Below, in pieces: positions 8,768-29,964 of a stretch of 64,000 nucleotides of DNA (positions are counted from its first letter, which is position 1; every line of letters starts with the position of its first letter). The notes under the pieces are model-generated. The model had not been told where the DNA came from. It ran no database searches and was given only the letters and a program-made list of their open reading frames with translations. The position numbers and the translations under genes were made by a program. Origin of the DNA: Phycisphaerales bacterium (GTDB lineage: Bacteria > Planctomycetota > Phycisphaerae > Phycisphaerales > UBA1924); the NCBI GenBank assembly GCA_023382935.1, contig JAHDXL010000006.1:124001-188000 (forward strand), read 5' to 3'.

Positions 8768-8797
8768 GCGCGGGTCGGCTACGCTCTTGTCAGCAGG

Positions 8798-8814
8798 TCC
8801 GCCTGGCAGGCGGA
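8798..8814. repeat. short perfect inverted repeat between bamA and ompH
   Basis: TCCGCC-TGGCA-GGCGGA sits in the 77-base gap between bamA and ompH. It could form a small RNA hairpin just ahead of the ompH ribosome site. No T-tract follows, so it is not a standard terminator. Confidence 0.5.
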
Positions 8815-8844
8815 AGCATCAGGACAAGGCACAGGAGGCAACGC

Positions 8845-11903: not shown

Positions 11904-12530
11904 TCAAATGACTCTGGCCGGCACGCCGACGACGCAGGCGCCGTCCGGCACGTCGCGCGTCACCACCGCGCCCGCGCCTACCACGCAGCGCGAGCCGATG
12001 CGCACGCCCGGCAGCACGCGCGAGCCGAGCCCGATGAGCGTATCAGGCCCGATCGACACGCGCCCACCCAGCACCGCGCCGGGGGCCACGTGCACGTTCG
12101 CCCCGATGCGGCACTCATGCTCGATGATGGCGCCGGTGTTGATGATCGCGTGCTCGCCGACGCTGGCACGCACCTGCACCACCGCCTTGGCTCCGACGTA
12201 CACCCCCGCCCCCAGTTGGCTCACCACCGCCACCATCGCCGCGCCATCGATCACCACCAGCCCGCGCCGCAACGAGTGGGGGTGGGCGTCGATCAGGCGT
12301 CGGCGCAACGTCAGGTCGCCCAGCGCCAGGATCATGTCCGCCCCGGCCGCGGCGATGCGCTCGATCTGGCTCAGCGCCCCGAGGCGCTCGACGGCAGCAG
12401 GCTCATGGGCCAGTACGGCTGCGGGGTCGTCGTCGAGGAATCCGACCACAGCGGCGCCCGCTCGCCTCAGCGAACCGGCCACCACCAGCGCGTGTCCACC
12501 ACCGCCCACGAGTATGACGCCGTGTTCCAC
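11904..12530 (-). CDS. NeuD/PglD-family sugar O-/N-acyltransferase
   Basis: 208 residues. An N-terminal PglD-type Rossmann domain (VILVGGGGHALVVAGSL, then VVGFLDDDP) is followed by a left-handed beta helix of hexapeptide repeats with the catalytic-type IINTGAIIEHECRIG segment and VTRDVPDGACVVGVPARVI at the end. The family acetylates sugars, often nucleotide sugars or sialic acid, for surface glycans. It stands 15 bases downstream of pilB on the same strand. The glycan genes at 20.7-29.5 kb could supply its context, but that link is inference. Start ATG 12530 fits the family N-terminus. Confidence 0.85.
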   Translation of the reverse strand: MEHGVILVGGGGHALVVAGSLRRAGAAVVGFLDDDPAAVLAHEPAAVERLGALSQIERIAAAGADMILALGDLTLRRRLIDAHPHSLRRGLVVIDGAAMVAVVSQLGAGVYVGAKAVVQVRASVGEHAIINTGAIIEHECRIGANVHVAPGAVLGGRVSIGPDTLIGLGSRVLPGVRIGSRCVVGAGAVVTRDVPDGACVVGVPARVI

Positions 12531-14522: not shown

Positions 14523-14544
14523 GCGTCGCGTCCCGTCTCCGGGA

Positions 14545-15246: not shown

Positions 15247-15790
15247 CGGCGTTCTCCTTGTCCTGGAAGTAGATGCTCAGCGTGAACTTCACCGAGATTT
15301 CCGGTTCCCCCGCCGTGACGTTGCCTCGCTTGATCTCCATGTCCACCACGCGCGTGATCCGCGGCAGCCGCTCCATCCGCCGCAGAAACCCATAGAACCC
15401 GCGGAACGTGCCGGAGGTGCTCAGTTCCAGCGGCTGCTCCCAGTACACCGCCGCCTGCACCGGCTTGAGGCTCTTGAGCGTCGGAGCCGCCAGCCCGGAG
15501 TCCACGGCCAGCATCGACACCTGCTTGACGATCTGGTCCACCCCCTTCGACGACGGGAGGCGAGCCTCGTCCTTGCGGATGCGATCGGCGATGAGTTCGT
15601 TCGCCTTGGCCAGGTCCGCGTTGCGCGCGGTCTCGGCACGCAGACGCTCGAGCACCTCGCGCTTGTGCCCGATCTCCGCCAGCGCCGCGTCAATCGCCCG
15701 ATTCTGCGGGCGGAACACCAGCAGAAAACTCATCACCGGGATGAGCAGCACCAGCGCAAAGGTCAGCAGTTCCCGCGCTCCCAGTCTCAT
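15239..15790 (-). CDS. pilO: type IV pilus inner-membrane protein PilO
   Basis: 183 residues. A short cytoplasmic N-terminus and one membrane segment (LLTFALVLLIPVMSFLLVF) are followed by a coiled coil (EIGHKREVLERLRAET). A ferredoxin-like domain with GTFRGFYGFLRRMERLPRIT follows, the PilO signature. It pairs with PilN in the alignment complex spanning the periplasm. ATG 15790 overlaps the pilN stop as ATGA, so an upstream in-frame start inside pilN is less likely. Its own stop overlaps the PilP-like gene. Confidence 0.85.
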   Translation of the reverse strand: MRLGARELLTFALVLLIPVMSFLLVFRPQNRAIDAALAEIGHKREVLERLRAETARNADLAKANELIADRIRKDEARLPSSKGVDQIVKQVSMLAVDSGLAAPTLKSLKPVQAAVYWEQPLELSTSGTFRGFYGFLRRMERLPRITRVVDMEIKRGNVTAGEPEISVKFTLSIYFQDKENAGE

Positions 15791-16611
15791 TGCTCCTGCC
15801 CCCCCATCCCGAACAGCCCCCACAGCCCCTTGCCCGCCTTTTCGTCGGGCGTCAGGCTGGCCGTCTCGTCAAAAAGCGTGGTTTCCTCGGCCTCCTTCAC
15901 CGCCGACGCATCCGCGTCAGGGTCGAGCGTCGCCGTGATCCGGAACTTCCTCAGTTTCAGTCCCTCCAGCGTTGTCTCCGAGATGAACTGCAACTCCACG
16001 TTCTTGAGCAGCGGCGAGGCCTTCAGGCGCGCCAGGTAATCGGCAATCTGGTCGTTCCCCTCCGACACGCCCTCCACCGTCAGCATGTGCTTGAACTCCG
16101 GAGGCACGATCTTCGTGTCCTCGGGCTTCGGCTCGCCCGACGGGGCCGTCGTCCCTGGCTTGAGCGACACCACCGGCTTGCCCTTCTGCGCTCCGGGCGC
16201 CGGCGCCGGCGGCGCAATCTTCACACGCTCGCCCGCAAGTTTGATCTCCGTCAGCGTCGCTTCCTTCGGCTTGGCTCTCCACAATTCGGCCATCAGCACC
16301 GATCGCGGAACGTTGTCGCGCAGTGCCGCCACCACGGCCGCCTTGTCCATCATCTCCACGCGCTGCTTCTCCAGTGCCTTGAGCGCTTCGATCTTGACTG
16401 CCTCTTCCTCGAACTCCACCCGGATCTGCCCCTGATCGGCGCGCACGCTCTGCCAGCGCCGGTTGGTCAGCACAAAGGCCGACACCACCGCCACCATCAC
16501 CACCCCGAACAGCAGCAGCGAAATCACGTTCCAACGCGCCTCGTCCTTCCCGCGGACATAGTCCTCGGGCAGAAAACTGGCCGGACCGCTCCTGGTCACA
16601 CCGCGGCTCAT
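15787..16611 (-). CDS. pilN: type IV pilus inner-membrane protein PilN
   Basis: 274 residues. A short cytoplasmic N-terminus (SFLPEDYVRGKDEAR, the PilM-binding type) precedes one transmembrane segment (VISLLLFGVVMVAVVSAFVL) and a coiled coil. A Pro-rich linker (~130-160) and a ferredoxin-like domain with GVSEGNDQIADYLARLKASP follow, the Fimbrial-PilN signature. A 45-residue acidic tail is longer than usual. A GGAGGTG ribosome site precedes ATG 16611. Part of the pilM-N-O-P-B run. Confidence 0.85.
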   Translation of the reverse strand: MSRGVTRSGPASFLPEDYVRGKDEARWNVISLLLFGVVMVAVVSAFVLTNRRWQSVRADQGQIRVEFEEEAVKIEALKALEKQRVEMMDKAAVVAALRDNVPRSVLMAELWRAKPKEATLTEIKLAGERVKIAPPAPAPGAQKGKPVVSLKPGTTAPSGEPKPEDTKIVPPEFKHMLTVEGVSEGNDQIADYLARLKASPLLKNVELQFISETTLEGLKLRKFRITATLDPDADASAVKEAEETTLFDETASLTPDEKAGKGLWGLFGMGGQEQ

Positions 16612-16623
16612 CGCCACCTCCGA

Positions 16624-17901
16624 TCAAAGATCCGTCGGGCTCAGGCACATGCCAAGAGCCGCCGTCCAGCCCGGCTGGGCCTTGCCGAACTCCACCCCCG
16701 CGATCGGCTCGCTCCCCGTCCTTGACAGACGCGAAATCGGATCGCCCACCTGCACCGGAATGCGGATCGCCCGCGCCAGATGCTGGCACAGCCACGCCTG
16801 CCTCGCCTCGCCTCCCACCAGCACCGCGCGCTCCACATTCCGACCCCCGAACATCGACTTGTGATACCGCAGACTCATGCAGATCTCGTCGGTCAGGATC
16901 TCCAGAGGTTCGGCCAGATCCACTCCCTGCGGATAACGCAGCGCCGTCGTTGCCGGTTGCACCTCGGCGCTCATCCCGGGCGTGCCCCCCACGCCGCGCC
17001 GATCGTCTACCGCCACGCTGGTTTCCTCCGCCGACTTCCCTTCCGCACCGTTGGCACCCGCCTCGGCCTTCTTCGACCTCGCGATCGCCGCGTGCAGCAG
17101 CGCCAACCCGTCTCCCCCCTCGCCGGCTGGCTCGCCCGTCGTGGCACGCTCCAGCACGATCTGCCGGCGCAGCTCCCTCGCCTCGGTCATGCCCACGTGG
17201 GCCTGCTTCATGATGGCCACGTCCATGTGCAGCCCGCCCAGGTCCACCGTGCGCGCAAACACAAGGCTGGTCCCGTGCGCGATCATCACGTTCGTGGACG
17301 CGTATCCCAAGTCGAGATACAGCGTGGTCTTGCCCGCGTCCTCTTCACGACGATTCACGTCGTCGAACGCCCGCAGCACCGACTGGAACGGCCCGTGCAC
17401 GCCCACCGGCTCCAAGTGGGCCGACTTCAGCGCCGCCATCAGCCGACCCACCAGGTCGCGGCTGGCCGCCATGCAGATCACTTCGCTCTTGCCCCCGCGA
17501 CCCCCGCCCGGCACTTCCACGCTGCGGCACACCAGCGATTCAAACTCGCACCCCACCTGTGCCGGCAGCAACGCCTTGAGCATCGAGTCCACGCCCACGC
17601 CTTCGCTTAACTGGAACTGCATGTGCTTGCAGAACATCTGCGAAGCGGGAATCAGGCACACCGCCCGCTTGGTCGTGAACCCGCCCTTCCTGATCAACTT
17701 GGGCAACTGCTCGATCTGAAATCGCAGTCGCGAGCTGGCATCCTCCACCAGATCGTCCGGTGTCGGCAGAAAGGCCGCAGCCACCAACTTGCGACTCTCA
17801 TTCCCGCTGATCTGCAGCGCCTTCAGCCCGCCCGCGCCAAAGTCGATCGCGATCGGCGCGGCGCCGACGGCTGGCAATGACCGGAGCCCCTTGTAACGCA
17901 T
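16624..17901 (-). CDS. pilM: type IV pilus assembly protein PilM
   Basis: 425 residues. It is an actin-like cytoplasmic ATP-binding protein that recruits PilN. The N-terminal phosphate-1 motif APIAIDFGAGGLKALQ, the later LYLDLGYASTNVMI phosphate-2 segment and the AVLVGGEARQAWLC adenosine motif follow the family order. An insert of ~45 residues rich in Ala/Glu/Gly (EGKSAEETSVAVDDRRG region) between the last two motifs looks disordered and lengthens the protein beyond the usual ~350. Start ATG 17901 has GAGG eight bases upstream. First gene of the pilus run. Confidence 0.88.
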   Translation of the reverse strand: MRYKGLRSLPAVGAAPIAIDFGAGGLKALQISGNESRKLVAAAFLPTPDDLVEDASSRLRFQIEQLPKLIRKGGFTTKRAVCLIPASQMFCKHMQFQLSEGVGVDSMLKALLPAQVGCEFESLVCRSVEVPGGGRGGKSEVICMAASRDLVGRLMAALKSAHLEPVGVHGPFQSVLRAFDDVNRREEDAGKTTLYLDLGYASTNVMIAHGTSLVFARTVDLGGLHMDVAIMKQAHVGMTEARELRRQIVLERATTGEPAGEGGDGLALLHAAIARSKKAEAGANGAEGKSAEETSVAVDDRRGVGGTPGMSAEVQPATTALRYPQGVDLAEPLEILTDEICMSLRYHKSMFGGRNVERAVLVGGEARQAWLCQHLARAIRIPVQVGDPISRLSRTGSEPIAGVEFGKAQPGWTAALGMCLSPTDL

Positions 17902-18061
17902 GGCAGACACCTCACAGGCGGCGCCGGCAACCCTCGTCCCAACGCACGCTTGCGAGCATCGGCCTGCGCCGACCCCCGGTTGATCCCCGCACCACTTCGC
18001 TCAAGCCCCTGATCGGCGCGGCCCGCACAGCCGGGTCATCCCGACCCCCCGGTACGTCCGA

Positions 18062-18754
18062 TCATCCCAGGCCCCCCTCGCCCGACACCGCGCGCAGGAG
18101 CCGGAACACTTCCCCCAGTCGGGCCAGCGAGCCGGGCATATCCCACTTCTGCCGCGTCCGATCTCCCGTGGTGTTGCTCACCACCCGCACCTCGACAAAC
18201 CGCACCCCGCGGCGTTCCGCCACCAGCCCCACCGCCGCGCCCTCCATCGCCTCGACCGCGGCTCCGGTTCGCCGAACCACTTCCAACGCTCGCTCGTCAG
18301 TCCCCGAACAGGTCGAGACCGTGGCGATGCGCAGGGATTTCACACCAGTTTCCCTGAGTCGCTCGAGCAGTCGCTCGTCGCCGTTCACTTCGTCCCCATG
18401 CGCGAAGGCCGGAAACCCCAGAATCGCCAATGACTGATAACCATCCGGGGCTTGCACACCCTCGTCGGCAAACACGCTGGCACTCCCCGCGACTACGTCC
18501 CCCATCTCCAGCCCACTTCCGGGGAGTAGACCTCCGATGCCGAGATTGACGACGGCCGCGTGTCGGCCGGGGTCGATGACGCTGGCAACTCCCCCGGCCG
18601 CGGCCGCCTTCCCGACCCCGGTCAGCACCACGCTCAGCCCCGGTTCAATGGACGACTCGGTCCAGACTTCCAGGTCGGGAAGCCCGCACGCGCGCGCTTC
18701 GATCCTCGACGCGATGGCGATCAGCAGGTTGTGGGCGCATTGCGGGCCGCTCAT
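18062..18754 (-). CDS. mqnB: futalosine hydrolase
   Basis: 230 residues, the typical size. A nucleoside phosphorylase-fold enzyme that releases hypoxanthine from futalosine in the alternative menaquinone pathway. Motifs include the glycine-rich TGVGKAAAAGG, AVVNLGIGGLLPGSGLEMGDVV, FADEGVQAPDGY and the active-site-like EAMEGAAVGLVAERRGVRFVEVRVVSNTTGDR with catalytic Glu and Asp. These distinguish it from MTA/SAH nucleosidase, the nearest alternative. ATG 18754 follows a GGGAGG site. No other mqn genes are in the window. It points to menaquinone-based respiration. Confidence 0.85.
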   Translation of the reverse strand: MSGPQCAHNLLIAIASRIEARACGLPDLEVWTESSIEPGLSVVLTGVGKAAAAGGVASVIDPGRHAAVVNLGIGGLLPGSGLEMGDVVAGSASVFADEGVQAPDGYQSLAILGFPAFAHGDEVNGDERLLERLRETGVKSLRIATVSTCSGTDERALEVVRRTGAAVEAMEGAAVGLVAERRGVRFVEVRVVSNTTGDRTRQKWDMPGSLARLGEVFRLLRAVSGEGGLG

Positions 18755-18856
18755 GGAACAAAATCCTCCCCCTGCGCCTATGAATCCTACAGGAAGTCGG
18801 ACTAGGCGTGTGATCTTGCGCCCGCGGGGGGGTGCGTGGGCGAACGGGAGGCGGAC

Positions 18857-20743
18857 ATGGCTCAGAGCACGAAGGGGCGTCAGTCCCGCAAGGGCGGAAC
18901 GCTCTTGGTCATCATCGGCGTCGTCGCGCTCATCGCCGTCGGCGTTCTGGCGGCCATCTACTACAACTCCGACAGCCCGGCCACCTCCGCCCGAGTCACC
19001 AGCACCGCCGACATCGTCGAGTCCGAGCGCGGGAGTTTCGAGATCCGAACGCTGGCCACCGGAGAACTGGAGGCCAAGAACCGCATCGAGTTGCGCAACA
19101 AACTCGACAAGCCGGCCACCATCATCGAGATCATCCCCGAGGGCACTTTTGTGCAGGCGGGAGACGTGCTGGTCCGGCTCAACTCCAACTCCATAGAGGA
19201 ACAGAAACTCACTGAAGAACTGGCGCTGGAAGAAGCACGCTCCCAACTGCTCAACGCGCAGACGGCCCTGGAGATCCAGGTGAGCGAAAACCAGTCGCGC
19301 TCGCGCAACGCCAGCCTCAAGGTGCTGCTGGCCGAACTGTCGCTCAAACAGTGGGCCGAGGGCGACGACATCCGCACCAAGAAGGAACTGGAACTGGCGA
19401 TTGCCCAGGCCGAACGCCAGGTTGAACGCCTGACCGAAAAGTATGAGCGCAACCTGGAACTGCTGGAGAAGAAGTTCATCAGCCCCGACCAGTTCAAACT
19501 GGACGAGATTGCGAAGAAGGAGGCCGAGGCCTCTCTCGACAAGGCCAACCTGAACCGCATGGTCTACGAGACCTACACGCGCGTGAAGGAACTAGAGCAG
19601 AAGGAATCCGATCTGCGTGAAGCCCAGGCCGAGTTCGATCGAACCGAGCAGGAAAACGAGATCAACCTGAACTCCCGCAAGGAAACCGTGTACAACCGGG
19701 AGCGCCAAGTGCAGCGCCGCGAGACCCGTCTGTCGGAACTGAACCAGCAACTCGACTATTGCACCATCGTGGCGCCGTCTGCAGGCCTGGTGGTATACGG
19801 CACGACAGTGCAGAGCGACAACTTCCGGTTTGGCAACGAAGGCCCGCTTCAGGTCGGGCGCAACGTTTCCCCCAACGACCTGCTCATCGTGCTGCCCGAC
19901 ACCTCGCAGATGGTTGCTCGCGTCAAAGTGCACGAGAGTCTGGCCGGTCGCGTTCGCCCCGGGCTGCCCGCCGACGTGCAGATCGACGCCGCGGGAAAGC
20001 GCACCTTCTCCGGGCGCGTCGAGACCATCGGCGTGATGGCCGAGAGCGTCGGGTGGCGCGACCCCAACCGTCGCGAGTATTCCGTCCGTGTCTCGCTGGA
20101 CCCCGGCCAGGACACCGAGGGCCTCAAGCCCTCCATGCGCTGCGAAGCCCGCATCCAGTTGGGTGTGGTCGAGGACGTGGTGCACGTGCCGGTGCAGGCC
20201 GTGTTCATCGACGGCCCGGTGACCTTCGTCTACACGCCCCGTGCCGGCAAGTTCGCCCGCCTGCCGGTGCAACTGGGTCGTCGATCTGATACGCGCGCCG
20301 AACTGGTGGCCGGCGCCCCGGCCGGGCTGCCCGTGCTGCTCCGCGCTCCGTCAGCCGGCGAAGTTCTGGCCGAGGCCTGGAAGCCCGATGAACTCAAGAT
20401 TGCCGGCTACACGCTGGATGAGAAGGGCAACCCGGTCGCGCCTGTGATGGCGCAACAGGGTCGCCCGCGCATGCCAGGCCAGGGGCCCAATGGCGCAATG
20501 GGACAAGGGCGTCCGGCAAATGGTGAAGGCATGCCGCGTCCCGACGCTGACAACGCGCAGCCGCAGGAAGGTGTGGCGCAACAGGACGGCTCGCAGACCG
20601 GTCCATCGGGGGACAGCCAGCCCGAGCCGACCGATGCGGCCGACGCCAACAAGCCCGCGCCGACCACTGAGCCAGGCGCACAGCCCCGCGCGCGTCCGGG
20701 CGGAGGCGGGGAAGGTCGCGGCCCACGCCGCGGGCAGGGCTGA
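18857..20743 (+). CDS. HlyD/RND-type periplasmic adaptor protein
   Basis: 628 residues. One N-terminal membrane anchor (TLLVIIGVVALIAVGVLAAIYY), a biotinyl-lipoyl-like half (GELEAKNRIELRNKLDKPAT) and a long alpha-helical hairpin of Glu/Arg/Leu coiled coil (~115-300). The second lipoyl half with DYCTIVAPSAGLVVYG follows, then beta-barrel and membrane-proximal domains. The last ~105 residues (MPGQGPNGAMGQGRPANGEG...) are Gly/Pro/Gln-rich and probably disordered. ATG 18857 has GGGAGG upstream. Such adaptors bridge inner-membrane pumps (MacB ABC or RND) and TolC; no pump gene is adjacent, so its partner is unknown. Confidence 0.85.
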   Translation: MAQSTKGRQSRKGGTLLVIIGVVALIAVGVLAAIYYNSDSPATSARVTSTADIVESERGSFEIRTLATGELEAKNRIELRNKLDKPATIIEIIPEGTFVQAGDVLVRLNSNSIEEQKLTEELALEEARSQLLNAQTALEIQVSENQSRSRNASLKVLLAELSLKQWAEGDDIRTKKELELAIAQAERQVERLTEKYERNLELLEKKFISPDQFKLDEIAKKEAEASLDKANLNRMVYETYTRVKELEQKESDLREAQAEFDRTEQENEINLNSRKETVYNRERQVQRRETRLSELNQQLDYCTIVAPSAGLVVYGTTVQSDNFRFGNEGPLQVGRNVSPNDLLIVLPDTSQMVARVKVHESLAGRVRPGLPADVQIDAAGKRTFSGRVETIGVMAESVGWRDPNRREYSVRVSLDPGQDTEGLKPSMRCEARIQLGVVEDVVHVPVQAVFIDGPVTFVYTPRAGKFARLPVQLGRRSDTRAELVAGAPAGLPVLLRAPSAGEVLAEAWKPDELKIAGYTLDEKGNPVAPVMAQQGRPRMPGQGPNGAMGQGRPANGEGMPRPDADNAQPQEGVAQQDGSQTGPSGDSQPEPTDAADANKPAPTTEPGAQPRARPGGGGEGRGPRRGQG

Positions 20744-21991
20744 TCAGGCCGCCGAACTGCGTCCTTCTTCGCCCGCGCCGCAATAAATCCGCCACACGCG
20801 CACGCCGCGTTGCCGGTGCGCCTGTGAACCGGCCCACATCGCCTCCTCATGCCAGTCACTCGACAGCAGCACATGCTCGCCCGCGCCGATGGCCGACGGA
20901 CTCTCCACGCGATACCCGAACCGCTCCTGCCCGGCCAGCGCATCATCCACGATGCCCACGATCGGCACGCCTAGGTCGTCCGCATGATTGAGCAGCCAGT
21001 CGGTGTGCCGACCGGCGCCCCACACCCACACCGCTGATACGCCCTTGCCGCGCAACTCGCGCCCAACCTCGCGCACCCGCGCCGCGCGCGCCGAGTCAAA
21101 GGCCCGCAGGTGCGATCCGGGGCTGGTCCACGAGCCCCATAGCCACGCGAGCAAGTCCGCCATGCTGGGCCCGCCCTGCCGCATGCGCTCCTCGATCCGC
21201 GTTCGCGCCGGCTCGATTTCACCGCGCTCGGCCATGGCTGCGATGAGTTCAAGCATTTCGCCGGCACAGCCGCGCGGCAGCGCATCCCACGCCCGCGCCA
21301 TGACCCGCGCCGCGTGCGTGCCCTGCAGGGGAGTGGCTCCGAAAGCCCGCGCTTCGTCCCGGCGCGTCAGCGTGTAGAGCACCTCGGGCAGCGCGCACAC
21401 TCCTGTGCGCCCCCCGCGCATGCTCAGTCGCGACCACAGTTCGTAGTCCTGCGCCCGTTCAAAGGTCTCGTCGTATCCACCGGCCGTCAGCACCGCGCTG
21501 CGACGCAGCATCATCGACCCGTGCGCGAACGGGTTGGAAATCAGCAGGCGCCAGCGTGTCTCCTCTGGCTCCGCCGGCGGCGTCACCACGCCTAGGCTGC
21601 CGCCATCCGGGCCCGCCACGCGGTAACTCGTGCCCAGCGCCGCGACGTTGGGCCGCGCGTTCATCGCCTCGGCCTGCATTGCCACGCGCTCGGCGTCGCA
21701 GGCATCGTCGGCGTCCATGCGGGCCACCAGTTCGTACCTTGCCTCGCTCAGCCCCACGTTCAGCGCCGCCGCCAGTTGGGCCCGCTCGATCTCGACGACC
21801 CACGCCCGTTCATCGCCCAAGCACAATCGTTGCGCGCATTGGCGCGTCTGCTCGTCGGCCCCGTTGAGCACGAGCAGAATCTCCAGCCGCTCGTACGTCT
21901 GGTTCTGCACGCACATGAACGCCCGCTCGAGCAGATCCGGATCGCCTTGCGACACGGGCAACAACACTGTCACGCCTTCCTGCACGCGCAT
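20744..21991 (-). CDS. glycosyltransferase family 2 with C-terminal PglD-like Rossmann module
   Basis: 415 residues. The N-terminal GT-A domain shows VTVLLPVSQGDPDLLERAF, the ARMDADDACD metal-binding DxD and a later FERAQDYELWSRL acceptor motif. A helical middle follows. From ~residue 310 to the end is a separate module: VWVWGAGRHTDWLL, IVGIVDD, VLLSSDWHEEAMWA, GVRVWRIY. The same module ends the GT4 protein at 26922-28454. It resembles the nucleotide-binding half of NeuD/PglD proteins, but its substrate is unknown. Start ATG 21991, 11 bases after the upstream methyltransferase stop. Converges directly with the RND adaptor. Confidence 0.8.
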   Translation of the reverse strand: MRVQEGVTVLLPVSQGDPDLLERAFMCVQNQTYERLEILLVLNGADEQTRQCAQRLCLGDERAWVVEIERAQLAAALNVGLSEARYELVARMDADDACDAERVAMQAEAMNARPNVAALGTSYRVAGPDGGSLGVVTPPAEPEETRWRLLISNPFAHGSMMLRRSAVLTAGGYDETFERAQDYELWSRLSMRGGRTGVCALPEVLYTLTRRDEARAFGATPLQGTHAARVMARAWDALPRGCAGEMLELIAAMAERGEIEPARTRIEERMRQGGPSMADLLAWLWGSWTSPGSHLRAFDSARAARVREVGRELRGKGVSAVWVWGAGRHTDWLLNHADDLGVPIVGIVDDALAGQERFGYRVESPSAIGAGEHVLLSSDWHEEAMWAGSQAHRQRGVRVWRIYCGAGEEGRSSAA

Positions 21992-22001
21992 GCCTGCACT
22001 C

Positions 22002-22814
22002 CTACGCCACCTTTCGCTGGCTCGCCGCCTCGCCCGGCTTGACGGCCACCACCAGCAGCATGTGCCCGACCGCGGCCCGCACCCACCGCGGCGGATGATC
22101 GACCAGTCTCCGCCACCGCGGCCCGCGAGCCCGCACACGGTCGAGCAGCCCCTTGCATCCCAGCGTGTCCTTCAGCCCCTTGTAGGCGTCGTAGGCGTCG
22201 ACCAGATCCACGCGCAGCCCCACCGCAAGCAACTCGCCGACCAGTTCCTCCGCACGCAGGAAATACTGATAAAACGGCACGTCTACCGGCGGCGCTCCTC
22301 GCGAAAGCAACCCATGGCGCACGCGCCGCAGCGCGTTGTAGTGCGGTACCGTTACCAGCGCCACGCCCCCCGGCCTCAGACACCGCGCCGCCTCCCGCAG
22401 GATCTGTCTTCGCGTCGCATCGTCAAAGTGCTCGATGACCCCGAGCGAGATGTACCCCGCCAGCGAACCCGACGCACAATCGAGCGCCCGCACGTCGCCC
22501 ACCCGATAGCGGCCGCCCGGATCGATCGCCCGGTTGGCCTCGATCACCTGCGGGGCAAAATCGACTCCCTCGATGTCATACCCGGCGGCCCGGATCGTCC
22601 GCGCCGTGTTCCCGTTGCCGCAGCCGGCCTCAATGATGAGCCCCTCGCGCGGCATGAAACGCTCGATTGCCTCGCGAAATCCAGCGTACACACCCATGCC
22701 CGCCATCGTTTCCGGCGGATGCCGCCTCCAGTGCGCATCCCAGTACGCGGGGGTGTCGGCCCCCTGCCGATACATCTCCAGCCGCCCGCGCCGATGCACC
22801 ACCACCGTCTTCAT
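22002..22814 (-). CDS. class I SAM-dependent methyltransferase
   Basis: 270 residues. Motif I LIIEAGCGNGNTARTIRAAG, motif II acidic DIEGVDFAP, motif III YRVGDVRALD and the SLGVIEHFDD post-motif are typical of the UbiE/Methyltransf_11 group. The N-terminal segment TPAYWDAHWRRHPPE is common in glycan-cluster methyltransferases. ATG 22814 has a GGGAGGGAG site and overlaps the stop of the next methyltransferase (ATGA). By position it probably methylates a sugar or carrier in the surface-glycan pathway; the acceptor is not readable from sequence. Confidence 0.8.
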   Translation of the reverse strand: MKTVVVHRRGRLEMYRQGADTPAYWDAHWRRHPPETMAGMGVYAGFREAIERFMPREGLIIEAGCGNGNTARTIRAAGYDIEGVDFAPQVIEANRAIDPGGRYRVGDVRALDCASGSLAGYISLGVIEHFDDATRRQILREAARCLRPGGVALVTVPHYNALRRVRHGLLSRGAPPVDVPFYQYFLRAEELVGELLAVGLRVDLVDAYDAYKGLKDTLGCKGLLDRVRARGPRWRRLVDHPPRWVRAAVGHMLLVVAVKPGEAASQRKVA

Positions 22815-23707
22815 GCCCGACTCCCTCCCGGCCACACCACCGCCGCATACAGCGAGGCCGGTCGATTGCCCGTCCACCGATCAAGATGATGGCTGCACGC
22901 GCGCAGCCGTCGGTACACGCCCGTGAATCGCTGCCGTCGCTCGCGCTGAGGACAGTTCGCGTGCGAAATCATCCCCTCATGCAACAGCGCCGAGAAGAAG
23001 CCACCGATGCGATAGATCTCAGCCCGCGGACACAGCCGCCGCACGCAACGCGGGCTGTATTGGCGCCACCCGTGCGGGCCCCACAGGTCCAGCCCCTTCT
23101 CGCCCGGCACGATGTGCACCTCGCCCGCGCCCGGCGCCAGCATGCGCCGCGCCCGCTCAAGGGCCCGAGCATCGTCCTCAAAGTGCTCCAGCGCAGTCAT
23201 CGAGATCAGCAGGTCGATCGGCCCCACGTCGGCAAGATCCAGCGCATGCACGTCGCCGATGATGAGCCGGGGCGCAAATGCTGCGCAGTCAAACGAGCCA
23301 AATCGCGGATGCTCGGCCTGGTCGAGCCCCACATACACACCGCTCAGTCCAGCGTCCGCGAGCAGCCGACGCGCGTACCCGCTCCCACAACCGAGATCGA
23401 GGACGCGAATCTCGGACCTTGCCAGACGCTGTAGCGCCACCGCTCCGAACCAGCGCACGAACGAGTCCATCGCGACGCGCGAAGGCGAACTCCCCGAACG
23501 TTCCTCGACCACCGAACAGGGCATCGGAAGAGTCCGGACGCGCTCCACCCTGGACAGGTGAGCCAGGTGCGCGTTGCGCTCGCGATGGAAATGCAGATAG
23601 GCCTCGCGATCGTCCGAAGTAAGACCGACGTCCCCATTCAGGCGGGACGGGTCGGGCCGGATGGAACCAGCCGGGAGGGGGGCAATGACCGACGACGAAG
23701 CGCTCAT
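22811..23707 (-). CDS. class I SAM-dependent methyltransferase
   Basis: 298 residues. A ~75-residue N-terminal extension (DREAYLHFHRERNAHLAHL) precedes the Rossmann core: IRVLDLGCGSGYARRLLADAG, VYVGLDQAEHP, LIIGDVHALDLADV and ISMTALEHFEDDARAL. The C-terminus is Arg/His-rich (YRRLRACSHHLDRW). It is first in the minus-strand run of two methyltransferases and a GT2. It diverges from a GT4 across a 58-base gap that must hold both promoters. The acceptor is unknown, presumably a glycan. Confidence 0.78.
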   Translation of the reverse strand: MSASSSVIAPLPAGSIRPDPSRLNGDVGLTSDDREAYLHFHRERNAHLAHLSRVERVRTLPMPCSVVEERSGSSPSRVAMDSFVRWFGAVALQRLARSEIRVLDLGCGSGYARRLLADAGLSGVYVGLDQAEHPRFGSFDCAAFAPRLIIGDVHALDLADVGPIDLLISMTALEHFEDDARALERARRMLAPGAGEVHIVPGEKGLDLWGPHGWRQYSPRCVRRLCPRAEIYRIGGFFSALLHEGMISHANCPQRERRQRFTGVYRRLRACSHHLDRWTGNRPASLYAAVVWPGGSRA

Positions 23708-23765
23708 GCGAGAACCTATCGAGTACCCGAATCCGTCTGCTTGACCATTCAGTCCCCGGACCTTG

Positions 23766-25106
23766 ATGAGCACAAGACTGGCCCAAACTCTCTTCGCCAC
23801 CATGACGCGCGGGATGTCGTTGCGCGAGTGGGAACGCTCCGGGCTGCTCTATCGCGAATGGGCCCTCTACGAACGGGTCGCCCGGGACTACGAGCGCGTC
23901 GTCGTCATCTCGCACGGCGACGACGACGACCAGACGATGGCCTCGCTGCTGAACCCGCGTCCCATCGTCATCGCCAATCGCGACCATCTTCCCGTCCTCG
24001 ACTATCTCGCCTCGCTGCCCGCACGCATCGAGGAGGCTCTGGGCCCGGTCGAGTCGGCCGTTGTCCGCACCAACCAGATGGACGACGCCGGGGCGGCCTG
24101 CACCATCGCTGGCTGGCTGCGCCATCAGGGCACTGCGTGTGCGCTCATCGCCCGCTGCGGATATCTGCGCTCGCAGTTCCTCGCCGCCGAGTTCGGCCCG
24201 GGCTCGCCACAGGCCGCCGACGCCGCCCTGATCGAGCGGACCGTCATCGGGATGGCCGACTTGGTCGTGGGCACGACCGAGCGCATCGTCAGCGACCTTG
24301 CCTGGCGCGACGGGCTGAGCGATGAACAGGTGCGCGTGGTGCCCAACTACGTGCTCGACGATGCGTGCATCCTTCCCGACGCTTCGCGCCAGCCGGGCCT
24401 CTTGGTTTGCGTAGGGCAACTGGTGCCTCGCAAGCGCGTGGACCACCTCGTTCGCGCCGTCGCCGAACTGCACCACGATCATGACGTCACGCTGCATGTC
24501 ATCGGTTCGGGGCCTGAAGAGGGCCCGCTGCGCGCGCTGGCCGCCGAACTGGGTGCCCCCGTCACCTTCTTTCCACGTCTGCCGCACCACGAGGTGCTCG
24601 ACCGCATGCGCCGAGCCTCGGTTTATCTTCAGGCCAGCGCCTTGGAGGGCCATCCCAAGACCCTCATGGAAGCCATGGCCTGCGGAGCGGCCTGCATCGT
24701 CGCCGACTCGCCCGGGCTGGGCAACCTCATCCAGAATGGCGTCACCGGGCTGTGCGTCTCCGGCGAGCCGCAGGCCTTCGCCTACGCACTGGCCGGGCTG
24801 CTCGAAGACGCATGCTGGCGCGAACAACTCGGCGCCTGCGCCTCGCAGTTTGCCCGCACGCACTTCGGGCTCGACCGCGTGATCGAACTCGAGCGTGAGG
24901 CCCACCGCGCAGCGCTTCAACTGGCCGCACACCGTCCACGCAGCAACAACACCCTCATCCGCTGGTGCCCGGCCCTGTTGCACCGGCAGCCGGAGGAAAT
25001 TGCCGGCGCCTGGGCCGAAGCGATGGAAGCCCTGCTCGCCCGGCTCCCAACCGAACGTCGGGCCCAACTGCGCAACGAACTGGCGCGCCGCGACCTGGCT
25101 GCCTGA
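23766..25106 (+). CDS. glycosyltransferase family 4
   Basis: 446 residues. A GT-B fold. The C-terminal half has LLVCVGQLVPRKRVDHLVRA, VTLHVIGSGPEEGPLRALA, the ASVYLQASALEGHPKTLMEA nucleotide-sugar EX7E-type motif and GVTGLCVSGEPQAF. The N-terminal half, with the run ISHGDDDDQTMASLL and RTNQMDDAG, is less typical. ATG 23766 is preceded in frame by TTG 23763; neither has a clear ribosome site. The protein probably extends a surface polysaccharide. It is convergent with the sulfotransferase gene. Confidence 0.82.
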   Translation: MSTRLAQTLFATMTRGMSLREWERSGLLYREWALYERVARDYERVVVISHGDDDDQTMASLLNPRPIVIANRDHLPVLDYLASLPARIEEALGPVESAVVRTNQMDDAGAACTIAGWLRHQGTACALIARCGYLRSQFLAAEFGPGSPQAADAALIERTVIGMADLVVGTTERIVSDLAWRDGLSDEQVRVVPNYVLDDACILPDASRQPGLLVCVGQLVPRKRVDHLVRAVAELHHDHDVTLHVIGSGPEEGPLRALAAELGAPVTFFPRLPHHEVLDRMRRASVYLQASALEGHPKTLMEAMACGAACIVADSPGLGNLIQNGVTGLCVSGEPQAFAYALAGLLEDACWREQLGACASQFARTHFGLDRVIELEREAHRAALQLAAHRPRSNNTLIRWCPALLHRQPEEIAGAWAEAMEALLARLPTERRAQLRNELARRDLAA

Positions 25107-25134
25107 CTCGACCCATGCTTCGATTCACGATGGA

Positions 25135-25683
25135 TCAGGCCGCCCTGCGCGTCTGATTCAGCCGAGGGATCGGCTGCTCTGGAATCGGCACGCCCAGGAA
25201 CGGGCACAGCCTCTCCCACCCCTCTCCCCCGCACAGGTCCAGTTCGAGCAGATCCTTCGGCCTGCGGTAGAAGTAGTCACGCACCTGCTCGACGTGGGTC
25301 CAGTAGGCGTTGACGAACGTCACCCGGTCAAAGCCGCGCGTGCCGTAGATCACTTCGCGCAACGCCGCCTTCGGACAGTCCGGATCGTTCAACTCGTGCT
25401 CGCGCCGCAGGCGATGATCTTCGACACTGCGCAGCCAACTCTCGATGTCGCGCACCGTGAGGATGAACTTGCTGCCGGGATAGGCCAGGTCGAGTTCGCG
25501 GTAGTACGCGCTGACGGAGATATCCGTGGCCGCGTCATAGCCAGCCAGCGCCTCCTCGAACTTCCCCGCGGTCATCAGCATCGGGCTGGGGTAGTGAATC
25601 GAGCGGAATCCCAGGATCTCCAGGCACGCATTGAGCGTGTGCGTGCCGGTCTTGCTCATCCCGATGCCGAAAATCATGCCCAT
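25135..25683 (-). CDS. sulfotransferase-family protein
   Basis: 182 residues. Near the N-terminus is the 5'-phosphosulfate-binding loop of PAPS-dependent sulfotransferases (FGIGMSKTGTHTLNACLEIL, Lys and Thr in place). The 3'-phosphate motif FILTVRDIESWLRSV with Arg and Ser comes later. The end, YFYRRPKDLLELDLCGGEGW followed by LCPFLGVPIP, is the family's usual closing pattern. Three in-frame ATG codons cluster at 25689, 25683 and 25677; 25683 has the best-spaced GGAG. It probably sulfates a glycan in this island, which would make the product anionic. Confidence 0.8.
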   Translation of the reverse strand: MGMIFGIGMSKTGTHTLNACLEILGFRSIHYPSPMLMTAGKFEEALAGYDAATDISVSAYYRELDLAYPGSKFILTVRDIESWLRSVEDHRLRREHELNDPDCPKAALREVIYGTRGFDRVTFVNAYWTHVEQVRDYFYRRPKDLLELDLCGGEGWERLCPFLGVPIPEQPIPRLNQTRRAA

Positions 25684-25830
25684 CGCCATTCTCCACCCCC
25701 AACATCGGTCAGACCGCCCACGGTGTCCACCACCGGCCCGCCGCGATCGTCCTTCGCGCACGCTTTGCGCCCTGGCACGCCGTCTCACGCCTCCAGCGGG
25801 CTCACGCATCGGACCGATGCAAACCACCGC

Positions 25831-26925
25831 ATGCGCATCGCCGTCGTCAGCCAGATCCGCCCGGGCAGTTCGCTCGCACACGCGATCAACGTGATCAAGA
25901 CCGCTGGCGGCTTCGCACGCCTCGGACACCACGTCACGCTCTACACGCTGGCTTGCGAAGCCGAACATCCCGCCGATCTCTACCACGAGCCCGACCTGCG
26001 CTGGGTCGCCGCCCCGGCGCTGGACGCAGCGAACCTCGACGAGTGCTTCGGCCGCTGGGCTGCCAACGCCATCGCCGCCGACGCGCCCGATCTGGTCTAC
26101 GCCCGCAACTTCGTGGCGCCCCTTTTTCTGGCCGAGCGTGGGATTCCCGTGGTCGTCGAAACGCACGCCCACGTCGGGGCAATCAATTCGCTCCTCGACC
26201 GCACGCTGCACGCGACGCACTCCTCCGACGCGCTGCGGGCCATCATCACCATCGCGCCGATCCTGCGCGACCACTACATCGCGCGCGGAGGACGCTCCGA
26301 TCGCATCCACGTCGTGCCCGATGGCGTGGACATCGATCTCTTCACCACGCCCCAGCCCGCGCCCTGGCCCACTGGCGCCATACGCGCCGTCTACGCCGGA
26401 CACCTCTTTGACTACAAGGGGATTCCGACCATACTCGACGCAGCCGCCCTCATGCCTCACGTGCGCTTCGAAATGGTCGGCGGACTTCCCGGCGATATCG
26501 AACGCGCGCGACAGCGCGTCGCGGAGCGCTTGCTCCCCAACGTCGCCATGCACGGGCATGTGCCGCATGCGAGGGTTCCCGCGTTCGTCCAGCATGCCGA
26601 CGTGCTGCTGCTTCCGCCTTCGGCTCGCGAGGCGTCCAGGGACTGGACCAGCCCGGTCAAACTCGGTGAATACCTGGCCACCGGTGTGCCCATCGCCTGC
26701 TCGAGCATCCCCGCCCTGACGCGCGTGCTCCGTGAGCCGCTCGTCCGCTTCTGCACACCCGACGACGCTTCCTCCCTGGCCGACGCGATTGAACGGAGTC
26801 TGCTGGAGTCGCCCGACGATCCGGCGCGCCACGCCCGTATCGCGCACGCCCGCACCCTCAGTTATGCCGCGCGCGCCGGAGCCATCCTCAACGCCGCCAC
26901 TTCGACGAAAGCCCTGGCCGCATGA
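25831..26925 (+). CDS. glycosyltransferase family 4
   Basis: 364 residues. The N-terminal GT-B half has MRIAVVSQIRPGSSLAHAIN and VYARNFVAPLFLAERGIPVVVETHAH. The C-terminal half has IHVVPDGVDIDLF, AVYAGHLFDYKGIPTILDAA and the DVLLLPPSAREASRDWTSPVKLGEY nucleotide-sugar region, read here as two short motifs (DVLLLPPSA, SPVKLGEYLA). Start ATG 25831 fits the family N-terminus although no ribosome site is visible. Its stop overlaps the next gene's ATG (ATGA), so the two GT4 genes form an operon. Divergent from the sulfotransferase. Confidence 0.82.
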   Translation: MRIAVVSQIRPGSSLAHAINVIKTAGGFARLGHHVTLYTLACEAEHPADLYHEPDLRWVAAPALDAANLDECFGRWAANAIAADAPDLVYARNFVAPLFLAERGIPVVVETHAHVGAINSLLDRTLHATHSSDALRAIITIAPILRDHYIARGGRSDRIHVVPDGVDIDLFTTPQPAPWPTGAIRAVYAGHLFDYKGIPTILDAAALMPHVRFEMVGGLPGDIERARQRVAERLLPNVAMHGHVPHARVPAFVQHADVLLLPPSAREASRDWTSPVKLGEYLATGVPIACSSIPALTRVLREPLVRFCTPDDASSLADAIERSLLESPDDPARHARIAHARTLSYAARAGAILNAATSTKALAA

Positions 26926-28454
26926 CCGCCACGTTGTTCATCCTGCCGCAGGGCCCGACCATCGGCGGCGTGACCACCTGGGTGTGCCAGAGCGCCTCGG
27001 CGCTGGCCGGCGCCGGAGAGCGCGTCGGCGTGCTGGTTCACGGAGCACTGGCGGACCACACCGACACGGTCCTGCCGCTTCACCCCGGCGTGACCCTGTT
27101 CACCGACCCCGCTCTGCCCGCGCCCTGCACGCTGGCCGGCGCGATCAGGCCCGTCGTCGATCGCTACGCCGACGTGGCACGACAACTGGCCAGTTCACAC
27201 TCCGAGACCGTCGTGCTGGTTCCCACGCGCGATGCTGACTGTTTCACAGCCGCGGCCCGGCTGGTGGCGAGCGATCCAGTCCGGCGGCGCATGCTCGGCT
27301 GGCGTCACTCCCCGATGCCCTATGAGCGCGAAATCTTCGCCCGCTCCGCCCCGGCCATGTCGCGCCTGGTTGGTGTCAGTCAACACCTGGCGGACGAACT
27401 GCGCACACTCCACCCCTCGCGTGCGCTCGACATCGCCTGCGTCCACAATGCCGTCCCGGTTCCGCCAGCGCCACCTTCCCGCGCGCCTCTCCACGCCCGT
27501 CCGCTCCGACTCATCTACACCGGCCGCCTCGACGAGCCCTTCAAGCGCGTCGAAGCCCTCGTGCACATGAGCGACGCCCTGCTCGCTCTGCGGTTGCCCC
27601 ACCAACTCTCCATCATCGGCGACGGGCCTTCGCAACCATCGCTGGAAGCCCTGGCTTCCTCGCGACCTGCAATCACGCTGCACGGCCCGTTGCCGCCACA
27701 CCAGGTCGCGCCCGCGCTCGCACAGGCCGATATCTTCGTTCTGCCCTCGCGCGTCGAAGGCCTGAGCCTCTCCGCCCTCGAAGCCATGGCCACCGGCTGC
27801 GCACTCATCCTAGCCCGCACCCCTTCCGGCGCCACCGACCTGATCGGGGATGACGAGGCCGGAATGATCGCCGGCGCCGTGCCGCACCAAGGCCCGGTCG
27901 AGGCAGGGCACGCCCTCGCCCGCGCGGTCCAGTCTGTTTCTTTTCGTGACCTCGCTGCGATCGGACGCCGCGCCCACGCGCGCTCCGCTCGCCTCTTCTC
28001 GCTTCATCGCTTTACGCGCGCCCTGCTCGACCAGGTCGCCCACGCTGCGGCGACGCCTCCGTCGCTCGATGCTCCCATCGAGTCTTTCCACGATGCCCGC
28101 CGTCCTGCCAGCGTGCCGCCCGACGCCGCCGAGCGCATGCGGTCGTGCCTGGACACGCTGGCCGATCGGCCTGTCGTCATCTTCGGCTGCGGCGCGCATA
28201 CGCGCGCCTTGGCCGACGTGTTTGCCAACTCGCCCGCTCGCATCGTTGCGCTCTCTGATGATGACCCGGGTACGCATGGCCAGACGATGCTCGACCGCCC
28301 CGTCGTCGCACCCGACGAACTCGCTCGCACCGGCGCCACCGACCTGGTGCTCAGTTCATGGATGCACGAGGATGCCCTCTGGGCACGCCGCGCCCTCTTC
28401 GAGCGGCAGGGCCTGCGCGTCCACCGGCTCTATGCCCTCAGGCGGCCTGCGTGA
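26922..28454 (+). CDS. glycosyltransferase family 4 with C-terminal PglD-like Rossmann module
   Basis: 510 residues. The GT-B domain (~1-390) has LPQGPTIGGVTTWVCQSAS, RLIYTGRLDEPFKRVEALV, LSIIGDGPSQPSLEAL and the donor-binding VLPSRVEGLSLSALEAMA motif. After a linker, residues ~410-508 form a second domain: VVIFGCGAHTRALADV, IVALSDDDPG, DRPVVAPDEL, DLVLSSWMHEDALWA, GLRVHRLYAL. This matches the end of the GT2 at 20744-21991 almost motif for motif. The 17 last bases overlap the convergent GT2 gene. The module could bind a nucleotide or sugar cofactor; this is inference. Confidence 0.82.
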   Translation: MTATLFILPQGPTIGGVTTWVCQSASALAGAGERVGVLVHGALADHTDTVLPLHPGVTLFTDPALPAPCTLAGAIRPVVDRYADVARQLASSHSETVVLVPTRDADCFTAAARLVASDPVRRRMLGWRHSPMPYEREIFARSAPAMSRLVGVSQHLADELRTLHPSRALDIACVHNAVPVPPAPPSRAPLHARPLRLIYTGRLDEPFKRVEALVHMSDALLALRLPHQLSIIGDGPSQPSLEALASSRPAITLHGPLPPHQVAPALAQADIFVLPSRVEGLSLSALEAMATGCALILARTPSGATDLIGDDEAGMIAGAVPHQGPVEAGHALARAVQSVSFRDLAAIGRRAHARSARLFSLHRFTRALLDQVAHAAATPPSLDAPIESFHDARRPASVPPDAAERMRSCLDTLADRPVVIFGCGAHTRALADVFANSPARIVALSDDDPGTHGQTMLDRPVVAPDELARTGATDLVLSSWMHEDALWARRALFERQGLRVHRLYALRRPA

Positions 28455-29487
28455 GTTGAGGACCGCGCTCGCGCTGCTCAGCCCCGGCCAGCGCATCGAG
28501 CAGTCCGCTCCGCCAGAACCATCGCTTCAGCGGAAGATGCTGGCTGTAGCACAGGTCGATCAATTCCTGCGCAAACAGGCCGTCGGCAAACCCCGCGGGC
28601 AGTTGCGCCAACTGCGCGAATGGACCCAGCGCCCGCTGCGCCCCCACGCGCTCGCGCTCGACAAACTGTCGTGTGTACTCGGCCTCCTCCTCGGCCAGCA
28701 GGTCGCGCCCGAACAACTCGCGCGCACACTCCGGCGCCGCCTGCGCAAAGCCCAGCGCCGCGTACCCCAGCCGATACTCGCGCTGCAGGTAACTCGAAGG
28801 CTCGTAGCGGTGATCGTGCCAGGCCACCGCCTCGGGGCGATAGCGCACCGGCGCGCCGAACTGCTCGCGCAGCCGCCAGGCCAGTTCATCGTCCTCGAAC
28901 CCGTACGTACTCGGAAACTCCGACAGCCCCCCGACTTCGCGCACGGCCCAGGCCGGTATCGACAAATTGAGCATCCACGCGTGCCGGAAGCCCCAGTCGC
29001 GCTGCCGCGCGTCCGGCGCCGCCCGCATCCGGTCGTAGAAGAAGATCATCGAGGTCTCACGCACCAGCAGGTCAAACATACGGTCGACCTCGTGCACGAT
29101 CCACGGCGAATCGCCGACCACGATCGTCGGCCGTCCGTCGCCCGACAACTCGCGCTGCGCTCCCAGGTGCGCCTCGATCAGCGTCGGCTCCGGGCGCATG
29201 TCATCGTTGAGAAAGATGAGGCTCTCACCCCGGGCCTCTTCCAGCAGCGCGTTGCGCACCCCCGCCTGTCCGCGCCGCGTGAAGGTGCGCACCTTCAGGT
29301 GCTCCCGCGGGCCCACCCAGAACTCGCGCAGCATTGGCTCGATGCCCACGTCCAGCCCATCAACCCCTACCAGCACCTCGAACCGCCCGGGGTCCACGGT
29401 CTGCTGTCCCAGCAGGCGTACACATTGCCGGACCTTGTCTGCACGCCCGCACGTTGGAATGAGAACGGTTGCTTCGATGTGACTCAC
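28438..29487 (-). CDS. glycosyltransferase family 2
   Basis: 349 residues. The GT-A core: ATVLIPTCGRADKVRQCV, FLNDDMRPEPTLIEAH (DD metal site) and a WGFRHAWMLNLSIPAW acceptor region. The STYGFEDDELAWRLRE ED motif follows, typical of polymerase-like or chain-extending GT2 enzymes. A ~120-residue helical C-terminus follows. The start is taken as GTG 29487, six residues before the first strand; ATG 29520 is possible, and neither has a strong ribosome site. Last gene of the glycan island, divergent from a PilZ gene. Confidence 0.8.
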   Translation of the reverse strand: MSHIEATVLIPTCGRADKVRQCVRLLGQQTVDPGRFEVLVGVDGLDVGIEPMLREFWVGPREHLKVRTFTRRGQAGVRNALLEEARGESLIFLNDDMRPEPTLIEAHLGAQRELSGDGRPTIVVGDSPWIVHEVDRMFDLLVRETSMIFFYDRMRAAPDARQRDWGFRHAWMLNLSIPAWAVREVGGLSEFPSTYGFEDDELAWRLREQFGAPVRYRPEAVAWHDHRYEPSSYLQREYRLGYAALGFAQAAPECARELFGRDLLAEEEAEYTRQFVERERVGAQRALGPFAQLAQLPAGFADGLFAQELIDLCYSQHLPLKRWFWRSGLLDALAGAEQRERGPQLTQAA

Positions 29488-29628
29488 GCCGCCTATATCG
29501 GCGGGCCACCCGCGCGCCATGCATCTTCGGACCTGATGCGCAACTTCGGCCGCCGATACACGCACCCCGATGCGCACAGTCTCAGCCCTCTCCTGACCGA
29601 TGGAGCAACAGCAAGACGGAGAAGAAGC

Positions 29629-29964
29629 ATGCTGACTCCCGATCGCCGCCGCCACCCGCGACACCACGCCGAGGTCTCGTGCAAGATCCGTTGCCCCGAC
29701 ACCGGACGCTACCTCCAGGCCATCACGACGGACCTGTCCGAGGGTGGCGCTTTGCTCACTGTGCGTACCTCGCGTCCCCTCGCCGACGGACAGACCATCG
29801 AACTGGCCCTGCGGGACGATGGACAGGTGCTGGTCCGTCGCGAGGAACTCATCCTCGCGCAAATCGTGCGCTCCAGCGCCCGCCTTGACGATCGGCAGAT
29901 CCTTGCCCTGCGGTTCGAGAGGCCCCAGGTGCAGCTCGGTCGTTCCGTCCGCGCGGCCGCCTGA
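29629..29964 (+). CDS. PilZ-domain protein (probable c-di-GMP receptor)
   Basis: 111 residues, a single PilZ domain. The c-di-GMP-binding RxxxR is present at the N-terminus (RRHPR) and the second motif is TTDLSEGGALL (DxSxxG). Both ligand motifs are intact, so binding is likely. ATG 29629 has GGAG seven bases upstream. The gene stands alone between the glycan island and nadA, and could link c-di-GMP to glycan or pilus output. That link is inferred only from position. Confidence 0.82.
   Translation: MLTPDRRRHPRHHAEVSCKIRCPDTGRYLQAITTDLSEGGALLTVRTSRPLADGQTIELALRDDGQVLVRREELILAQIVRSSARLDDRQILALRFERPQVQLGRSVRAAA

Follow-up and report, generated by a model that had tools for sequence, protein, structure and literature searches.

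We asked what small domain two glycosyltransferases of different catalytic fold have in common at a single planctomycete locus, and what it might do there. The locus lies in a 64,000-nucleotide stretch of DNA (hereafter, the window; positions 124,001 to 188,000 of contig JAHDXL010000006.1, GenBank assembly GCA_023382935.1) from a Phycisphaerales bacterium, and an initial annotation had proposed that both enzymes end in one shared Rossmann-like module. The first is a 415-residue GT-A enzyme of family GT2 (20744..21991, minus strand; Pfam PF00535, Glycos_transf_2, 1.1e-17), whose ATG start at 21991 is preceded by AGGAG, with the stop of the neighboring methyltransferase gene just before it; its C-terminus forms module A (20780..21085, minus strand; 102 residues). 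The second is a 510-residue GT-B enzyme of family GT4 (26922..28454, plus strand; PF13692, Glyco_trans_1_4, 2.9e-22) and ends in module B (28128..28436, plus strand; 103 residues). Both enzymes look intact, because the GT2 protein contains a DADD stretch and the GT4 protein an EGLSLSALE stretch, which we take to correspond to the DXD and EX7E motifs, respectively.

Judged by their sequences, the two tails are homologous domains of ~103 residues, well beyond chance. The Smith-Waterman score of tail A against tail B was 92, while 2,000 shuffles gave a mean of 26 and a maximum of 52, so that chance resemblance was rejected, and the full-length proteins matched each other in two-sequence comparisons by BLASTP (E 2e-7) and phmmer (E 1e-8). 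The five ordered motifs named in the annotation are present in both tails: GAGRHT in A and GCGAHT in B; IVGIVDD and IVALSDDD; RVESP and PVVAP; LSSDWHEEAMWA and LSSWMHEDALWA; and GVRVWRIY and GLRVHRLY. As the catalytic partners belong to different folds by Pfam, the claim of one C-terminal module on two unrelated glycosyltransferases stands.

AlphaFold2 models of the tails (pLDDT, the predicted local distance difference test, 92.3 for A and 94.6 for B) have the same order of elements except for one helix, at residues 65-71 of tail B, which shrinks to three residues in tail A. The structure comparison VIA returned the same best match for both over its full length, the C-terminal domain of KijD1, TcaB9 and MtmC (tail B: Z 11.0, root-mean-square deviation 3.1, 104 aligned; tail A: Z 10.7, root-mean-square deviation 3.2, 106 aligned). 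For tail A, the sugar C-methyltransferases all reached at least 9.7 and the next row 8.6. When a profile of the module was aligned with hhalign, the Methyltransf_14 domain scored 98.6% over 117 columns and PglD_N 89.9%, compared to 0.1-3.6% for four unrelated catalytic domains (FkbM, methyltransferase, GT2 and GT4). By these models, the domain that resembles the module most closely over its full length is the C-terminal one of sugar-nucleotide C-3 methyltransferases, with PglD_N behind it; how the KijD1/TcaB9 domain touches its sugar nucleotide we take from the fold match and from the titles of the Protein Data Bank (PDB) entries. Genuine C-methyltransferases occur in 7 of the 61 genomes of relatives searched and are absent from the window's own genome.

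To define the family, tail B was searched against 61 genomes (its own and 60 relatives), yielding 59 places at E ≤ 0.001, spread over 32 genomes; matches were found in 28 of 37 genomes of the window's family (own included) and in 4 of 24 from the order's other families. Iterated profiles yielded 56 distinct modules, of which 54 form an alignment we call A1; the dropped rows were one cut by a contig end (L031:2-271) and one of PglD type (L056). The latter (7951-9711) has a module-like N-domain (59.8 bits with the module profile) followed by what look by eye like hexapeptide repeats, and may possibly be a bridge between PglD_N and the module. The two window tails themselves score below every Pfam and NCBIfam cut-off. 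At E ≤ 0.01, PglD_N matches 18 and Methyltransf_14 matches 9 of the 54 A1 modules, and the NCBIfam NeuD family matches 32. Among full-length relatives, L025 (26.7 bits) and L215 (29.3 bits) pass the PglD_N cut-off of 23.4, and L134 (45.7 bits) and L143 (43.6 bits) pass the Methyltransf_14 cut-off of 23.5. By profile score, then, no curated family fits the module well, and literature searches listed no entry that describes such a module in its title or abstract opening.

The module reaches well beyond close relatives. In a scan of 392 genomes of the phylum, matches at E ≤ 1e-6, often partial ones, turned up in at least 76, and at least 13 genomes reached 50 bits, 9 of them from the window's family (with 10 family genomes among the matches listed); since 12 candidates were scored in most genomes, the scan may have missed some. 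A search of named genomes, with loci picked by the pattern [VI][AG][IL]YG[AF]GxHT (A1 was gathered without a pattern), added 79 loci, the majority titled Phycisphaerales or other planctomycetes, with others from Lentisphaerae, Deltaproteobacteria and relatives, Omnitrophica, Verrucomicrobia, Magnetospirillum and Romboutsia. From the 133 non-redundant named-genome modules, alignments A4 (82) and A5 (78) were made, each including both window tails. Among 72,556 plasmid records, the sole match was a plasmid of the cultured alphaproteobacterium Azospirillum oryzae, on which the module is found in three genes in a row, HUE56_RS00920, 00925 and 00930, at N-terminal, C-terminal and internal positions, in a stretch that also holds radical S-adenosylmethionine (SAM), GNAT, carbamoyltransferase and methyltransferase genes. 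That plasmid stretch (L215, 11860-18459) includes B12 and ketoacyl synthase III genes too and resembles a natural-product locus rather than a plain capsule locus.

To determine which enzymes carry the module, 182 modules in 176 reading frames were collected at 40 bits, and all but two adjoin a neighboring segment of at least 110 residues. Of the 176 frames, 144 have the module at the C-terminus, 17 at the N-terminus and 15 at an internal position. Partner classes were assigned by similarity cluster, with a Pfam scan of one or a few members of each: GT4 (57), class-I methyltransferase (24), a first unassigned domain (17), GT2 (16), a second unassigned domain (10), FkbM (9), radical SAM (8), two Methyltransf_24 types (6 and 3, the smaller cluster including a protein with a weak Nucleotid_trans hit), SGNH-like (5; a weak assignment, 28.2 bits against a cut-off of 32.9), TylF (4), multi-enzyme proteins (3), GSCFA, sulfotransferase and Glyco_trans_1_2 (2 each), other (12) and none (2). 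Representatives named by Pfam include FkbM, class-I methyltransferase, radical SAM with a B12 domain, TylF, GSCFA, sulfotransferase, sulfatase and Asn_synthase proteins. With partners of so many kinds, "glycosyltransferase module" is too narrow a term. This bears on the idea of a module found mainly in planctomycete glycosyltransferases: most named relatives are indeed planctomycetes, but the carriers include many enzymes that are not glycosyltransferases (methyltransferases, radical SAM enzymes, asparagine synthase, sulfotransferase and GSCFA proteins), so no role peculiar to glycosyltransferases can fully explain the module.

Fusions were read from stop-to-stop frames, and long GC-rich frames may overstate the length of an N-terminal partner. 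One giant protein (L120:1-2775) combines, by Pfam, Capsule_synth, methyltransferase, polysaccharide deacetylase and the module; two more (L122:4986-8321 and L164:4896-8147) were assigned to the same type by similarity, and another (L203:3183-6575) joins radical SAM, methyltransferase, deacetylase and module. Three modules occur in one protein (L131:6615-8663) and two in each of three others (L130:7908-9473, L143:6624-8270 and L037:8647-10626); in one tandem protein, the modules follow a GSCFA domain. A recurrent partner domain of ~240-435 residues (16 segments, among them L105:7164-8351, L104:7110-8363 and L037:10104-11246) had no Pfam match in the members scanned, and one member has a GGDDxxPD stretch, suggestive of a GT-A-type enzyme not yet described. 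Another, with ten members (including L089:7206-8336, L025:703-1794 and L090:7437-8336), carries some of the highest-scoring modules and, the module aside, had no Pfam match in the two members scanned. Finally, the C-terminal part of L049:7151-9412 (residues 349-754), which has no similar segment among the other proteins and no Pfam hit, presumably resembles a DUF115/MptE-type domain.

We then examined where the module is conserved. In A1, G23, G25, D47 and D48 are invariant and H27, T28, S75 and Y101 are present in at least 90%; these are also its eight most informative columns (in the order Y101, H27, T28, D47, D48, S75, G25, G23). Across the 182 modules of all partner classes, the same residues are kept in G25 182, D47 181, G23 180, H27 171, S75 170, Y101 169, T28 165 and D48 162, and less so S76 (146) and E80 (140); as the named-genome loci were picked by a motif-1 pattern, conservation of motif 1 is biased in A4 and partly in this set. 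All eight top columns of A1 fall within six residues after strands 1, 2, 4 or 5, the strands and the six-residue span being our choice, a placement equaled by 1 of 101 circular shifts. Information averages 2.72 bits in these loops and 1.48 elsewhere in A1 (reached by 1 of 101 circular shifts), and in A4 the observed loop value is reached by 1 of 105. Conservation is thus concentrated in what are predicted to be the ligand-edge loops of a Rossmann sheet. An excerpt of a report on a PglD-type enzyme (PMC8040287) describes its N-domain as a platform for uridine diphosphate (UDP): Asp41 (PglD 36) holds the uracil, Asp40 (PglD 35) is at the ribose together with Ser11, which is at the alpha-phosphate as well, and Cys13 (PglD His15) is by the sugar. 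Profile alignment places the GxGxH loop and the DD pair of the module on these UDP-binding places, with C. jejuni PglD itself outside the alignment. The annotated Rossmann-like fold with a PglD-type GxGxH and DD signature is upheld.

Copies of the module crowd together within genomes. In an unselected set of 21 genomes with at least two copies, the largest 25-kb group takes in 42 of 48 copies, and all copies lie together in 15 of the 21 genomes; in a set of 15 genomes partly chosen for having several modules, the corresponding numbers are 62 of 73 copies and 7 of 15 genomes. In one genome (G438), all module places at E ≤ 1e-5, nine in number, lie inside a 22-kb stretch, and five consecutive module genes there encode TylF-type, GT4, Asn_synthase, GT4 and Glyco_trans_1_2 enzymes. 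In the window's own genome (3.7 Mb), the only two copies are 7.3 kb apart (next places at E 0.007 and 0.14), and the pairing is kept in a genome of the same genus, where both module genes lie on one contig, 6.3 kb apart.

The modules follow enzyme class far more than cluster. On a fast tree of the 182 short modules, calculated without support values, nine partner classes change 25 times, compared to 82-94 times in 60 shuffles, while locus labels change 109 times, compared to 114-121. With the locus, not the genome, as the unit (one genome may hold several loci), a module and its closest counterpart from another locus share their partner class in 124 of 152 cases, where 30 are expected. As class changes are rare on the tree and nearest modules share their class, the fusions look old and inherited, with several re-fusions. 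For modules of different classes, similarity is no higher within a locus (43.0 bits, 64 pairs) than between loci (44.0 bits, 9,150 pairs), and cluster-wise co-adaptation was set aside as weak at most. Because class outweighs cluster in this way, one common ligand is favored over cluster-specific docking; on balance, the evolutionary pattern speaks against the latter and for a ligand common to all clusters.

Our preferred reading, held tentatively and at slightly less than an even chance, is that the module is a portable grip for a nucleotide or sugar nucleotide, with a role comparable to that of the recognition elements for ribosomally synthesized and post-translationally modified peptides (RiPPs). 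It would be a Rossmann-type binding domain of the sugar-nucleotide superfamily, with the C-terminal fold of a TylC3-type C-methyltransferase and the pocket signature of PglD_N, joined time and again to enzymes that assemble or modify a single glycan. Its most likely ligand would be the nucleotide of a nucleotide-activated sugar, or the freed nucleotide, gripped by the GxGxHT loop and the DD pair. On editing enzymes (methyltransferase, radical SAM, amidotransferase), the module would hold the nucleoside diphosphate sugar substrate as the N-domain does in PglD, while on glycosyltransferases it may concentrate the pathway's donor or sense its product; both the ligand and the effect on the partner are what we infer here, from the observed homology, fold, conserved loops, range of partners, crowding and agreement of modules with enzyme class. 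A broader proposal, which we consider rather doubtful, makes the module a general substrate-recognition element of bacterial glycan clusters through which unrelated enzymes (transferases, methylases, radical SAM enzymes, amidotransferases and sulfotransferases) would recognize the same activated-sugar or carrier moiety, a carbohydrate counterpart of the RiPP recognition elements.

A number of observations weigh against the grip. Sulfotransferase, sulfatase-type, polysaccharide deacetylase and GSCFA partners are better known to act on polymers, and modules on class-I methyltransferases keep D48 in 62%. The third motif, SSxxxE, is the module's own, unlike PglD, and because the PglD-type enzyme has a Cys at the place of the conserved His (PMC8040287, excerpt), UDP binding as such does not depend on that His. 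Among structures, the C-methyltransferase match of tail B ties with PDB entry 3nkl (11.0) and is closely followed by the uncharacterized 2g6t (10.3), Rex (10.0) and succinyl-CoA synthetase (9.7); Foldseek alone gave no hit for tail A at E ≤ 0.001. There is also a small cluster signal, the nearest module being in the same locus in 9 of 130 cases (1.3 expected) and locus labels changing slightly less often on the tree than in the shuffles. Only one of three Asn_synthase paralogs in G438 carries the module, and in the window cluster it is absent from three of five glycosyltransferases and both methyltransferases. No sugar-nucleotide synthesis gene was found among the 13 window open reading frames scanned (12546-29862).

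The alternatives account for parts of the same evidence. A docking module, gathering the enzymes of a glycan pathway by self-association or through one hub protein, with the conserved face structural or a ligand switch, would explain the crowding into one cluster per genome, the free position in the protein (N-terminal, internal or C-terminal), the tandem double and triple modules and partners without common chemistry; we hold it to be unlikely, as conservation sits in the ligand-edge loops and modules that share a locus are little adapted to one another, while non-specific self-association of modules is possible. That the module is an allosteric sensor, reading UDP or nicotinamide adenine dinucleotide (NAD(H)) levels to throttle the attached enzyme, seems quite improbable to us: Foldseek lists NAD(H)-sensing Rex repressors directly behind 3nkl for tail B, and the N-domain of a PglD-type enzyme binds UDP (PMC8040287, excerpt), but the modules have another residue in place of the last glycine of GxGxxG (T in 165 of 182, G in none) and a sensor is less economical on so many kinds of tailoring enzyme. 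The plainest alternative, which treats the tail as the usual C-terminal end of a single known glycosyltransferase family or as fold baggage that binds no ligand, fits the window taken alone, where the carriers are two glycosyltransferases only. It is nonetheless very improbable, since the module is fused on either side to enzymes of many families and its loop residues are nearly invariant. With two of the three Asn_synthase paralogs of one cluster lacking it, the module is an appended part rather than enzyme core. As far as sequence can contradict it, an ordinary glycosyltransferase C-terminus is rejected, and the predicted structures, which the initial annotation allowed might differ, share the same best match.

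Within the window, the two module genes belong to a small glycan cluster with divergent strands. Directly upstream of the module-bearing GT2 gene, on the minus strand, is a class-I methyltransferase gene (22002..22877; Methyltransf_25, 9.9e-15); the same strand holds a second one (22811..23803; Methyltransf_11, 1.1e-11), and neither gave a module hit in a scan of the window. On the plus strand lie two GT4 genes lacking the module in the same scan (23763..25106, PF00534, 7e-29; and 24895..26925, PF13439, 6.7e-13), the second directly upstream of the GT4 gene that carries it. A further GT2 gene, without the module, lies on the minus strand (28438..29862; PF00535, 1e-10). Type IV pilus genes are located at 12546-17910 and a gene for an HlyD-type protein at 18836-20743. 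The PglD/NeuD protein noted at 11904 is confirmed (11904..12530, minus strand; NCBIfam TIGR03570, NeuD_NnaD, 7.6e-55, 185.6 bits against a cut-off of 160.8; PglD_N, 1.3e-8, 35.7 bits) and represents the well-known use of a related N-domain in an acetyltransferase. Near the glycan cluster, at 6233-10559, there are also outer-membrane biogenesis genes, one for a POTRA-repeat protein of the Omp85 superfamily (6233-8767) and one for an LpxD-like acyltransferase (9501-10559).

In practical terms, glycan clusters can be flagged with a profile of the module, which also links enzymes that are annotated by their catalytic part only or as hypothetical, including two recurrent partner domains without a Pfam match. 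Should the module bind a nucleotide-activated sugar, it would tell at which stage glycan decorations are made; if it is a general substrate-recognition element, one profile could find unknown glycan pathways. The cultured carrier Azospirillum oryzae (strain KACC 14407) makes this testable.

Compared to known systems, the module is closest in fold and in C-terminal position to Methyltransf_14 (PF08484; KijD1, TcaB9, MtmC), which both tails match structurally. It differs in that the window proteins give no PF08484 hit at E ≤ 10, and in its motifs: 11 aligned C-methyltransferase domains of relatives have G(A/S)x(S/A)K(G/A) where the module has GAGxHT (GAGRHT and GCGAHT in the tails), and (V/A)Dx(N/S)xx(K/R)xG where it has DDDP (VDDAL in tail A, SDDDP in tail B). 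Its window partners are GT2 and GT4 enzymes rather than a SAM methyltransferase, while 24 of the 182 modules elsewhere adjoin class-I methyltransferases. With the PglD N-domain (PF17836) of the NeuD, PglB and VioB acetyltransferases, the module shares the GxGxH loop and the DD after strand 2 (DDDP). However, tail B scores 14.6 bits against a gathering cut-off of 23.4 and tail A gives no hit, alignments cover mainly the first half of the module, and the window modules are C-terminal with no left-handed beta-helix acetyltransferase domain after them. The Rossmann domain of 3nkl, annotated as a UDP-D-quinovosamine 4-dehydrogenase, is the best PDB sequence hit (1.1e-7), scores Z 11.0 for tail B and 8.5 for tail A in VIA, ranks first in Foldseek for both tails (at E ≤ 0.001 for tail B only) and has DDD in common with the module; it reads GAGSAG in place of GxGxHT, in another context. 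NAD(H)-binding Rossmann domains of the Rex type differ at the third glycine of GxGxxG, where the 182 modules have T (165), S (9), A (4), V (3), C (1) and G (0). The RiPP recognition element and the module are not known to be homologous. As described in excerpts of PMC7470986 and PMC12710340, the recognition element binds peptides and works in peptide pathways, and its likeness to the module is one of role, that of a small binding domain recurring across biosynthetic clusters.

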